This document shows positions 7,572 through 26,234 of a DNA stretch of 45,781 nucleotides, one piece after another. The DNA is from an uncultured Alphaproteobacteria bacterium (lineage in GTDB: Bacteria; Pseudomonadota; Alphaproteobacteria; RF32; CAG-239): positions 1-45,781 of the forward strand of contig CALXUQ010000006.1 of NCBI GenBank assembly GCA_944391725.1, written 5' to 3'. The notes beneath the pieces are model-generated. The model saw only the letters and a program-made list of their open reading frames with translations. It searched no databases and was not told where the DNA came from. How positions within the stretch are numbered: position 1 is the first letter of the stretch; each line of letters starts with the position of its first letter. Both the position numbers and the translations under genes were made by a program.

Positions 7572-7697
7572 TTTATCAAATCCTAAAAAAATTAATCCGA
7601 CAGCTGAGCTGCCAACTGTTCAAACCTCCAGGGGTGTTCAAACAATCAAGGCATTAATACAACAATCTTTTTGGTTTTTCAAGACTTTTTTCATTAA

Positions 7698-7726
7698 AAA
7701 AGCCCGGGATTATAAGCCCAGGCGTT
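7698..7726 (-). terminator. Terminator of the gene at 7710-8042
   Basis: GCCCGGG (7702-7708) pairs with CCCAGGC (7717-7723), with one G-U pair in the minus-strand RNA, followed by a T run at 7696-7701. The stem spans the stop codon of the gene. Confidence 0.8.
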
Positions 7727-8042
7727 TTCTTTCTTTTTGCACTTCAGGGATAAGCTCCCAATGCACATGATACAAGTTTCTTTTGGTATTAAAATGCTTA
7801 ATCCGCACCATCAACTTATCTGGTTCAATTCCTTCCGGCGGTTGTTTTTTGCAATATCCCGCGACATGATAATCGGCAAATTCAAACACCACGGCCCAAA
7901 TCCCCGGAGTTGCAGTTGGTTTTACACTCAATACCTTATACCACTTTTGTTCAAAAAACTTAGGCACCAGCAGCCGATTGACCGCATAGCCCAAAATTAC
8001 CAAAAACAAAGCTGTTCCAAAGCCCCACCAAAACATCTCCAT
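7710..8042 (-). CDS. Small membrane-anchored protein of unknown function
   Basis: A 110-residue protein. One N-terminal transmembrane helix (about 4-26, WWGFGTALFLVILGYAVNRLL) is followed by a probable beta-rich soluble domain of about 80 residues ending in charged residues. The pattern of alternating hydrophobics (KVLSVKPT, IWAVVFEFADYHVAGYC, KLMVRIKHFN) suggests a small beta-barrel or sandwich. I do not recognise the family. It follows a 43-residue membrane protein by 21 bp and is probably cotranscribed with it. Confidence 0.65.
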   Translation of the reverse strand: MEMFWWGFGTALFLVILGYAVNRLLVPKFFEQKWYKVLSVKPTATPGIWAVVFEFADYHVAGYCKKQPPEGIEPDKLMVRIKHFNTKRNLYHVHWELIPEVQKERKRLGL

Positions 8043-8063
8043 AATTAAAAAAGCATAAAAGAT

Positions 8064-8195
8064 TTAACTATTATTGTTAGATTTCTGATTTTCTTCAAAA
8101 TCGCGCTGTTTCCAGTAATCATAGTAGTAAGCGGCCGAAGAAGCCACTAACATCAACAGGACAATAAAAGCCCCCAAAATAATAAGCAATCCCAT
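8064..8195 (-). CDS. 43-residue single-pass membrane microprotein
   Basis: Reading frame from ATG at 8195 to TAA at 8064. It encodes 43 residues: a hydrophobic helix (about 2-22, GLLIILGAFIVLLMLVASSA) followed by a charged, polar tail (YYYDYWKQRDFEENQKS). The helix-plus-tail composition and the tight 21-bp spacing to the next gene on the same strand argue for a real gene. No strong ribosome binding site is visible, so confidence is moderate. Confidence 0.55.
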   Translation of the reverse strand: MGLLIILGAFIVLLMLVASSAAYYYDYWKQRDFEENQKSNNNS

Positions 8196-8267
8196 ATTCT
8201 TAATCTAAATTATAATTAATTATATGACAGAGTATGGAAAAAATTAATATTTGTCAACGATTTAAAA

Positions 8268-8306
8268 ATAAAAAAGGTTCGCTCTCAATAGACGAACCCT
8301 TTTTTT
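8268..8306 (-). terminator. Terminator of the gene at 8354-8668
   Basis: AAAAAGGTTCG pairs with CGAACCCTTTTT (GGTTCG at 8276-8281 with CGAACC at 8293-8298), flanked by A and T runs on the two sides. Confidence 0.75.
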
Positions 8307-8353
8307 GATTTAAGCTTAAAACAAATTAATTTCTTGCAGCCGCACATCCCAAG

Positions 8354-8668
8354 CTATGCAGGTGACAAGTCATCGCAGACAATAAGCTGCGAATCCGGAA
8401 AAAGAAACTTAACATCAAGTTTAAGCTTCTGACCGGGCTGATAGGTTTCCTTCGGGGATAATGTAAAAAAATGTCCGGACATTTTTTCATCATTATACCT
8501 AAAAGCAACCTCAACTTTAAGGGTGGAAGACTCCTGCACCGAAACTACATCTGCATCACACAAGATTGGACACTTTTTAAGTTTCTTAGCAAACACCCTA
8601 TATTTTCTCATCCGAACATATTGCAGGACGGAAGAAACTAATAATCGAGGCGAGAATAATGCTTTCAT
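8354..8668 (-). CDS. Small hypothetical protein, DUF3592-like beta domain
   Basis: A 104-residue protein. A basic N-terminus (about 1-32) precedes a likely beta domain (ADVVSVQESSTLKVEVAFRY, then a YQPGQKLKLDVKFLF strand pair). The order of strands and the PGQK turn resemble DUF3592-type small domains, but this is pattern resemblance only. The 5' side is notable: nine GANTC sites lie within about 200 bp upstream of its start (8696-8869). Confidence 0.6.
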   Translation of the reverse strand: MKALFSPRLLVSSVLQYVRMRKYRVFAKKLKKCPILCDADVVSVQESSTLKVEVAFRYNDEKMSGHFFTLSPKETYQPGQKLKLDVKFLFPDSQLIVCDDLSPA

Positions 8669-8695
8669 AATAGAGATAATTTTTATTTATGGTTC

Positions 8696-8869
8696 GATTC
8701 TACGATTCGATTCCTTAATTTTGTGTTAAAAAACCAATCTTCGATTCGAAAAAGCTCCATTTTTTTATCAATGGATTCGTTTTTATGACTTTCGACTCGT
8801 AAAATTACGCTTTTGGATTCGCAAAAATTAATTTAGGAGGGTAAAGACTCGGAGCAAATTTTCCGAATC
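8696..8869. promoter_or_regulatory. Cluster of nine GANTC (CcrM-type) sites
   Basis: GANTC occurs at 8696, 8704, 8709, 8743, 8774, 8794, 8816, 8846 and 8865, mostly as GATTCG or GACTCG. GANTC is the target of the cell-cycle methylase CcrM in alphaproteobacteria. The cluster fills the gene-free stretch upstream of the minus-strand gene at 8354-8668. A methylation-controlled promoter is an inference. Confidence 0.6.
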
Positions 8870-8873
8870 GCAA

Positions 8874-8912
8874 AAAAATACCTTTCTTTCTGAGTTAGAA
8901 AGAAAGGTATTG
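8874..8912 (-). terminator. Strong intrinsic terminator of the gene at 8922-9473
   Basis: A perfect 15-bp stem (8877-8891 with 8897-8911) and a 5-base loop GAGTT, followed on the minus strand by a run of T. It begins 11 bp after the stop codon. Confidence 0.92.
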
Positions 8913-8921
8913 ATAATACAC

Positions 8922-9473
8922 TTAGGCTTCAACCACTAAGTTTCCGGTAAAACCATTTAGCTTCGGGAAACAATAATCCGAACAGAATTTTACCTTACAA
9001 ATTTTTCCAGCTTGCAATCTTTTAATGTCCTTATAATCAGCTTCCATATACGCCCATGAACACTGTTCACTGGTATTTTTATCCCAGTAAATCAAACCAA
9101 AGATAAACCCTTCGGCAGCACCACGAACTTCCCAATCATAAGTAGCCCCTTCGGTAAATTTTGATAAGGTGTATTTTTTCCAGTTATGTTTTTTGACCAG
9201 CAAATCCGCCACAATCAGGGCAAAAATACCTATCCCTAACGGAAACACCATCAACACCCATGATCCAAACCACGAACCATAGCAATGTGTATTATAAGCA
9301 AACACACCAGAAAGAATTCCGATTGCAGCTATGACTGCCCCAAAAAGAATATCCCGATAAAACGACCGGACATAAACTTCTTTCACATACGAAATTTTGG
9401 TCACTTTATGATAGATTAATATTGCTACCCAGTAAACCAATAACACCATAAACACAATAAGTAAAAAATCCAT
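8922..9473 (-). CDS. Hypothetical three-helix membrane protein
   Basis: A 183-residue protein with three predicted membrane helices (about 3-22, 43-62 and 69-91), then a cytoplasmic or periplasmic domain of about 90 residues with aromatic residues and three Cys (CKVKFCSDYCF). Unknown family. The soluble part (WEVRGAAEGFIFGLIYW, then QAGKICKVKFCS) has a strand pattern similar to the neighbours at 7710 and 8354. It has its own strong terminator and appears to be a single-gene unit. Confidence 0.7.
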   Translation of the reverse strand: MDFLLIVFMVLLVYWVAILIYHKVTKISYVKEVYVRSFYRDILFGAVIAAIGILSGVFAYNTHCYGSWFGSWVLMVFPLGIGIFALIVADLLVKKHNWKKYTLSKFTEGATYDWEVRGAAEGFIFGLIYWDKNTSEQCSWAYMEADYKDIKRLQAGKICKVKFCSDYCFPKLNGFTGNLVVEA

Positions 9474-9587
9474 AAGCTTAAAATTTTAAGTTAATAATTA
9501 AATTATTTTGACAAATCATAGACAATATCTCTTGTATAGTCAACGAAAAATCTGACTATTGCTTAAATTTCCTGGCTCACACCACCA

Positions 9588-9618
9588 AAAAAGCACCCCC
9601 AAAGGGGTGCTTTTTTTT
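9588..9618 (-). terminator. Intrinsic terminator of pnp
   Basis: AAGCACCCC (9591-9599) / GGGGTGCTT (9604-9612) with a short loop and flanking runs of A and T. It lies about 20 bp past the pnp stop. Confidence 0.93.
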
Positions 9619-9638
9619 CATAGAAAATATGGATTAAA

Positions 9639-25740: not shown

Positions 25741-25770
25741 TTTTTTACCCCAAAACATATGGTTGGCAAG

Positions 25771-25779
25771 TTATACACA
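25771..25779 (+). promoter_or_regulatory. DnaA box
   Basis: TTATACACA, a perfect match to TTATNCACA, near the coaE side of the origin. Confidence 0.85.
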
Positions 25780-25793
25780 AATCGTTAACCTTT

Positions 25794-25802
25794 TGTGCAT
25801 AA
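25794..25802 (-). promoter_or_regulatory. DnaA box
   Basis: TGTGCATAA, the inverse of TTATGCACA and a perfect match, facing the box at 25771. Confidence 0.85.
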
Positions 25803-25863
25803 CTTCACCATTACCTAATGTTATACAATACTTATCACCGATAAACAAATTTATATCTGTAAG

Positions 25864-25903
25864 TTATATACAGGCTAAAAACTTATCCAGACTCTGTGGA
25901 TAT
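25864..25903. promoter_or_regulatory. Group of near-match DnaA boxes
   Basis: TTATATACA (25864), TTATCCAGA (25883) and TGTGGATAT (25895, minus) each differ from TTATNCACA at one base. Confidence 0.6.
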
Positions 25904-25948
25904 CAAAATCTATCAACAAACCTCATAAAATTAAGTTTACAAATTTTG

Positions 25949-25963
25949 TTAATGATTTTTTAA
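25949..25963. promoter_or_regulatory. CtrA box 1
   Basis: TTAA-N7-TTAA, the full consensus for the cell-cycle regulator CtrA, which blocks origin firing in Caulobacter. A GANTC site (25965) separates it from box 2. Confidence 0.7.
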
Positions 25964-25969
25964 CGATTC

Positions 25970-25984
25970 TTAAAAAGTGGTTAA
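25970..25984. promoter_or_regulatory. CtrA box 2
   Basis: Second perfect TTAA-N7-TTAA, 21 bp (two helical turns) from box 1, so both would sit on the same face of the DNA. Confidence 0.7.
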
Positions 25985-26020
25985 CTTTTGATTCACATTT
26001 TTACTCACAAAATTATAACC

Positions 26021-26054
26021 TCTGGATAACCATGTTTATCAAAAATAATCCACA
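26021..26054. promoter_or_regulatory. Near-match DnaA boxes, rho side
   Basis: TCTGGATAA (26021, the inverse of TTATCCAGA) and TAATCCACA (26046), each one base away from the DnaA consensus. Confidence 0.55.
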
Positions 26055-26117
26055 AGACTAACAGGTATATACTAATACAAATACTTTTTTTAAATTTATA
26101 GATTGGGCCCTTCGGGC

Positions 26118-26126
26118 TGTGTATAA
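26118..26126 (-). promoter_or_regulatory. DnaA box next to the rho promoter
   Basis: TGTGTATAA, the inverse of TTATACACA and a perfect match. It ends 6 bp before the -35 of the rho promoter, so bound DnaA could affect rho transcription. Confidence 0.75.
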
Positions 26127-26132
26127 AAAAAA

Positions 26133-26161
26133 TTGACAATCAAGAAAATCCAAGTTATAAA
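26133..26161 (+). promoter_or_regulatory. Probable rho promoter
   Basis: TTGACA at 26133-26138 and TATAAA at 26156-26161, spacer 17 bp. It leaves a leader of about 65 bases that includes a small hairpin (GGACA/TGTCC, about 26177-26192). Confidence 0.7.
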
Positions 26162-26234
26162 AAAAATCACCTACCGGACATTTTATTGTCCTTATATATA
26201 ATATATTCTTCACGTCTATACATCAAGGTATTTC

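Follow-up and report, generated by a model that had tools for sequence, protein, structure and literature searches.

A conserved GANTC array near the likely replication origin of an uncultured alphaproteobacterium, probably a methylation-sensed regulatory region

Results

Organization of the locus

The window analysed here, a stretch of 45,781 nucleotides from the genome of an uncultured gut alphaproteobacterium (G000), carries between rplY and pnp a small cassette that includes a dense run of GANTC motifs, the target of the methyltransferase CcrM. The features of this region, together with the likely replication origin discussed below, are as follows:

8354..8668, minus strand: gene of a 104-aa protein, left of the array and therefore downstream of it on the minus strand
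8696..8869, no strand assigned: GANTC array of nine sites, kept in G003 (9), G002 (7) and G004, G005 and G006 (7 each)
8696..8722, minus strand: 27-bp core with three GANTC and the possible -10, start-proximal, identical in G000, G003 and G002
8697..8702, minus strand: possible -10 hexamer TAGAAT, picked by eye, overlapping the GANTC at 8696 and lacking a good -35
8877..8911, minus strand: intrinsic terminator of the gene at 8922-9473, upstream border of the array
8922..9473, minus strand: gene of a 183-aa probable membrane protein, upstream of the array and fast evolving
25759..26234, no strand assigned: likely chromosomal oriC, the coaE / rho intergenic region, with nine DnaA-like boxes (one mismatch) and a sign change of GC skew

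The array fills the gap 8669-8876, which lies between the gene of the 104-aa protein and the terminator. Its sites start at 8696, 8704, 8709, 8743, 8774, 8794, 8816, 8846 and 8865, exactly where a preliminary description of this DNA had placed them. Nearly all of them had been described as GATTCG or GACTCG; on the plus strand the form GANTCG is indeed present in seven of the nine (four GATTCG, two GACTCG), but one of these seven is GAATCG, and the sites at 8696 and 8709 read GATTCT and GATTCC. Only the first three sites are at a promoter-like position, the other six being located 35-170 bp farther upstream. No sigma-70 promoter was called in the array by a consensus scan. Helical phasing of the sites gave a best Rayleigh P of 0.04 (period 10.0 bp) and 0.2 (10.5 bp), not significant after the several periods tried. 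An origin by tandem repetition was rejected, as TRF reports no tandem repeat here.

The 104-aa protein is found only in three genomes of one genus, and no Pfam family matched it above cut-off. An N-terminal helix and beta-strands are predicted in its AlphaFold model, which is of low confidence (mean pLDDT 50). Carriers of the gene among the relatives are Alphaproteobacteria metagenome bins, one of them from roe deer cecum. The whole gap between rplY and pnp (window 7572-9638) forms a variable cassette, whose small genes evolve fast, code for probable membrane proteins and differ among species of the genus.

Density of GANTC sites and their background

As background we used a 28% sample (434,781 bases) of the same genome, a fragmented bin. 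GANTC occurs there 712 times, or 1.64/kb, with 1.59/kb in coding and 1.92/kb in noncoding DNA according to crude gene calls. Base composition alone would give 1614 occurrences, so that the motif reaches less than half of its expected number. The same holds for the window, where 78 GANTC were observed against 136 expected from dinucleotide shuffles; the motif is therefore avoided outside the array. CcrM-bearing Alphaproteobacteria are known to be depleted of GANTC overall and enriched in it between genes (PMC3973325). The expectation of one site per 250-300 bp, originally proposed for this composition, was too generous; the measured average is roughly one site in 610 bp.

At the intergenic rate, the Poisson probability of at least nine GANTC in 174 bp is ~1e-10. 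Among 20,000 dinucleotide shuffles of the array region (mean 1.1 GANTC, maximum 6), none had nine. In the 434,781-base sample, no 174-bp stretch outside the array holds more than four. The whole genome was also scanned for three sites separated by short gaps; the next densest runs comprise six sites (contig C17, inside an ORF) and five (C50). The high density, for which a genome window count had been suggested as a check, is thus specific to the array and not general to intergenic DNA.

The sites of the array are also distinguished by their flanks. The extended form YGAKTCK accounts for six of the nine sites, compared with 176/633 (28%) elsewhere in the genome sample, a modest enrichment (P 0.017), and a flanking G is present at 7/9 versus 195/633 (P 0.005). 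In the array of the relative G005, three of seven sites show YGAKTCK as judged by eye.

Methylation machinery of the genome

The involvement of CcrM and GcrA had been guessed from the motif, and a search of the genome proved the guess right as to the machinery: both genes are encoded. CcrM is present at full length (G000:C21, a 393-aa frame), matches C. crescentus CcrM (6pbd) over residues 36-390 with E 2.4e-155 and carries a RAMA domain. GcrA, encoded at G000:C42:590-1153, matches PF07750 above cut-off (E 4.7e-36) and structure 7ye1 (E 2.6e-25). GcrA binds preferentially to methylated GANTC of the extended form YGAKTCK, although GcrA of B. subvibrioides did not show this preference (PMC7987155), and its binding is stronger and wider on fully methylated DNA (PMC3667746). 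A SeqA-like protein had been offered as another possible reader of the array, but nothing favours such a protein over GcrA.

In Caulobacter, the MucR protein shields GANTC from CcrM (PMC5172544). No match to MucR (PF05443) was obtained in G000-G011, that is in the own genome and 11 family members, and the same search did recover MucR from Caulobacter and from further relatives in the class. Occlusion of the array by MucR was rejected on this ground.

Conservation in relatives

Counterparts of the array, with 7-9 GANTC at the corresponding spot, exist in five further genomes of the genus. In G003, the closest relative, identity reaches 95.7% in the array region, compared with 91.4% in both rplY and the 104-aa gene and 81.5% in the 183-aa gene. 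The nine substitutions in 8669-8876 all fall within 8758-8808 and outside GANTC, leaving the nine sites unchanged. In G002, whose 104-aa protein is 59% identical, the 27-bp core is preserved without change, and more copies of CGATTCG are kept amid flanks that hardly align. The array is thus retained upstream of homologues of the gene at 8354-8668, in G003 and G002, as the preliminary description had suggested looking for.

No 104-aa gene could be detected in G004, G005 or G006, though the array and the leader remain. Both are better conserved there than the adjacent gene of a 162-aa protein. The leader retains a block resembling the start of the 104-aa gene, ATGGAAGCATTATTAGG versus ATGAAAGCATTATTC, followed by a stop after ~8 or 9 codons (DNA read by eye). 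The view of the array as the upstream region of a small unknown gene therefore holds for G000 and for the genomes with homologues, but is an incomplete account, because the array persists in three relatives in which no such gene is detected. For the same reason the regulated product is uncertain. In other genera, no array was seen within ~1.5 kb upstream of rplY in the readable loci, the locus of G012 being not located and that of G013 partial. Judged by this pattern of sequence conservation, the array is under selection.

Position relative to the likely origin

The coaE / rho intergenic region (25759-26234) very probably represents the chromosomal origin; the cumulative GC skew of the window is lowest around 26-27 kb. 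The intergenic region holds three GANTC of its own, at 25890, 25965 and 25990, one of which overlaps a DnaA-like box (25989). The array lies 17 kb away in G000, and in G004, G005 and G006 it is found on the same contig as rho at a distance of 19-22 kb. The idea that the array is oriC itself, or its sequestration cluster, was rejected because of this separation.

Discussion

A methylation-sensed promoter region

We propose that the array is a CcrM-methylated regulatory region of GcrA type, controlling transcription that begins immediately upstream of 8668 and runs leftward, on the minus strand. We consider this the probable explanation, and with it that the array is a real switch reading DNA methylation near the replication origin. 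The proposal rests on the excess density of sites, the presence of CcrM and GcrA, the depletion of GANTC elsewhere, the conservation of the sites, the nearness of the origin, the recurrence of similar arrangements in the family and the precedent of known promoters. Against it stand the negative result of the sigma-70 promoter scan, the placement of six sites upstream of any promoter-like position, the persistence of the array where the 104-aa gene goes undetected, and the modest size of the YGAKTCK enrichment together with the missing preference of B. subvibrioides GcrA. From the supporting observations we infer that the sites are methylated and bound by GcrA, as well as the position of the promoter, its direction and its timing.

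In the proposed mechanism, CcrM would methylate all nine sites and GcrA would load together with RNA polymerase on several methylated GANTC of the extended form YGAKTCK. Three sites would belong to the core promoter, one of them overlapping the likely -10. As the array is only 17 kb from oriC, the replication fork would pass it almost immediately after initiation and leave it hemimethylated for the greater part of S phase. This state would last until the late action of CcrM in the cycle, a timing assumed here as known in Caulobacter and established also in Agrobacterium (PMC11514494). Because of this long hemimethylation, the promoter would switch a single time in each cycle, during early S phase, and the large number of sites would make the change sharp and robust. 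As to its sign, we lean slightly, by analogy with the A. tumefaciens gcrA promoter, towards an array that is repressed when fully methylated and on when hemimethylated.

Alternative explanations

The best surviving alternative, which we nevertheless hold to be rather unlikely, is that the array acts independently of its neighbour genes, as a titration sink or landmark next to the origin, buffering GcrA or CcrM or setting their timing. The array would then be an origin-proximal element, a replication-coupled timer or a GcrA/CcrM buffer, that has outlived a once-adjacent gene. A comparable role for DnaA is played by datA in E. coli. Three observations fit such a role: G004-G006 have the array at the corresponding place on the chromosome with no 104-aa gene detected beside it, the distance between array and likely origin is comparable in four genomes, and the sites extend well beyond any promoter. 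However, nine sites are a small share of the ~2,500 GANTC in the genome (1.64/kb x 1.57 Mb), so that simple titration is a weak explanation unless these sites are of high affinity. Moreover, the gene-less relatives have kept the start-codon-like block of the leader (ATGGAAGCATTATTAGG) alongside the array, which favours transcription.

It is less probable still that the sites bind another protein whose motif (~CGATTCG) merely contains GANTC, with methylation being incidental. The word common to the sites is indeed longer than GANTC, given GANTCG in 7/9 and the CGATTCG copies kept in G002, but the extension coincides with the published preference of GcrA, TGATTCG / YGAKTCK (PMC7987155), and is missing from the sites at 8696 and 8709. 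A CcrM target in a genome with CcrM is also methylated by default, and MucR, the known GANTC-occluding protein, is not among the proteins found in G000-G011.

A structured RNA or leader element, in which GANTC would occupy stems by accident, is very improbable. The minus-strand fold of 8669-8921 (z = -4.4) and the unusual conservation of a noncoding stretch would suit it, but 150-nt pieces without the terminator give z of -1.8, -1.8, 0.1 and -2.7, which leaves much of the signal to the terminator. A repeated near-palindrome moreover pairs with itself trivially, and there is no Rfam match; the RNA element was rejected on the fold signal and the missing match. That the sites accumulated by chance, or are left over from a local duplication, might be expected in an AT-rich gap (31% GC), the more so as GANTC is somewhat commoner between genes, but it is already contradicted by the Poisson probability (~1e-10), by 0/20,000 shuffles at nine sites, by the array not being a tandem repeat and by its retention in six genomes of the genus.

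Comparison with known systems

The array interpreted as a methylation-sensed promoter is best read as an extreme case of an already known type. E. coli oriC offers a distant parallel, with its GATC clusters that are methylated by Dam, bound by SeqA and hemimethylated for long. Both cases present dense methylation sites and, as predicted for the array, long hemimethylation near the origin, but the motif and the enzymes are different, and the array is 17 kb outside the likely oriC.

The closest match is the gcrA promoter of A. tumefaciens, where six GANTC lie in 250 bp and methylation is thought to be repressive (PMC11514494). In both systems several GANTC, strongly above background, precede one gene in a host with CcrM and GcrA (PMC11514494). 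The A. tumefaciens promoter has been studied experimentally, whereas the array is known from its sequence. They differ also in that the array packs nine sites into 174 bp upstream of an orphan gene and lies 17 kb from the likely oriC, while A. tumefaciens gcrA is ~430 kb from oriC.

Promoters controlled by GcrA and CcrM in Caulobacter crescentus, such as ctrA P1 and mipZ, have GANTC in or near the -10/-35 region, as the array would if TAGAAT is its -10, and the form YGAKTCK, to which six of the nine sites here conform; timing by distance from the origin, proposed here for the array, would be shared as well (PMC3667746, PMC7987155). The array has far more sites than these promoters, and GcrA binding to it is predicted. 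The MucR-shielded promoter P169, with four GANTC, is a further example of multiple sites in one promoter (PMC5172544), but MucR was not detected in the genome of the array or in the family members searched.

Promoters of this methylation-reading type have been described in a few model Alphaproteobacteria, and the published examples compared have one to six sites. The array, with its nine sites near a likely origin and its retention in a genus of gut bacteria that are uncultured, would offer a compact natural system for asking whether cell-cycle control becomes sharper with more methylation sites.

Other multi-GANTC runs in the family

Elsewhere in the family, GANTCG recurs in scattered runs, and some of these lie in promoters. 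In related genera, ppdK is preceded by 5-7 GANTC (in one genus) and rplK by 4. Since cases such as these and that of an HU-like gene recur (the names ppdK, rplK and HU being judged from N-terminal sequences, without a family search), multi-GANTC promoters look like a habit of the family, of which the array is the densest case found here.

In genus g7 (L161, L164), seven GANTC occur within 174 bp upstream of ppdK, coding for pyruvate phosphate dikinase. In the own genome, five GANTC are located between lon and the HU-like gene (G000:C50, L099:881-962), one of them inside a terminator-like hairpin. In genus g8 (L179, L180, L183), the coaE / rho gap contains five GANTC; as this gap is the likely origin, the origin itself may be methylation-marked in that genus.
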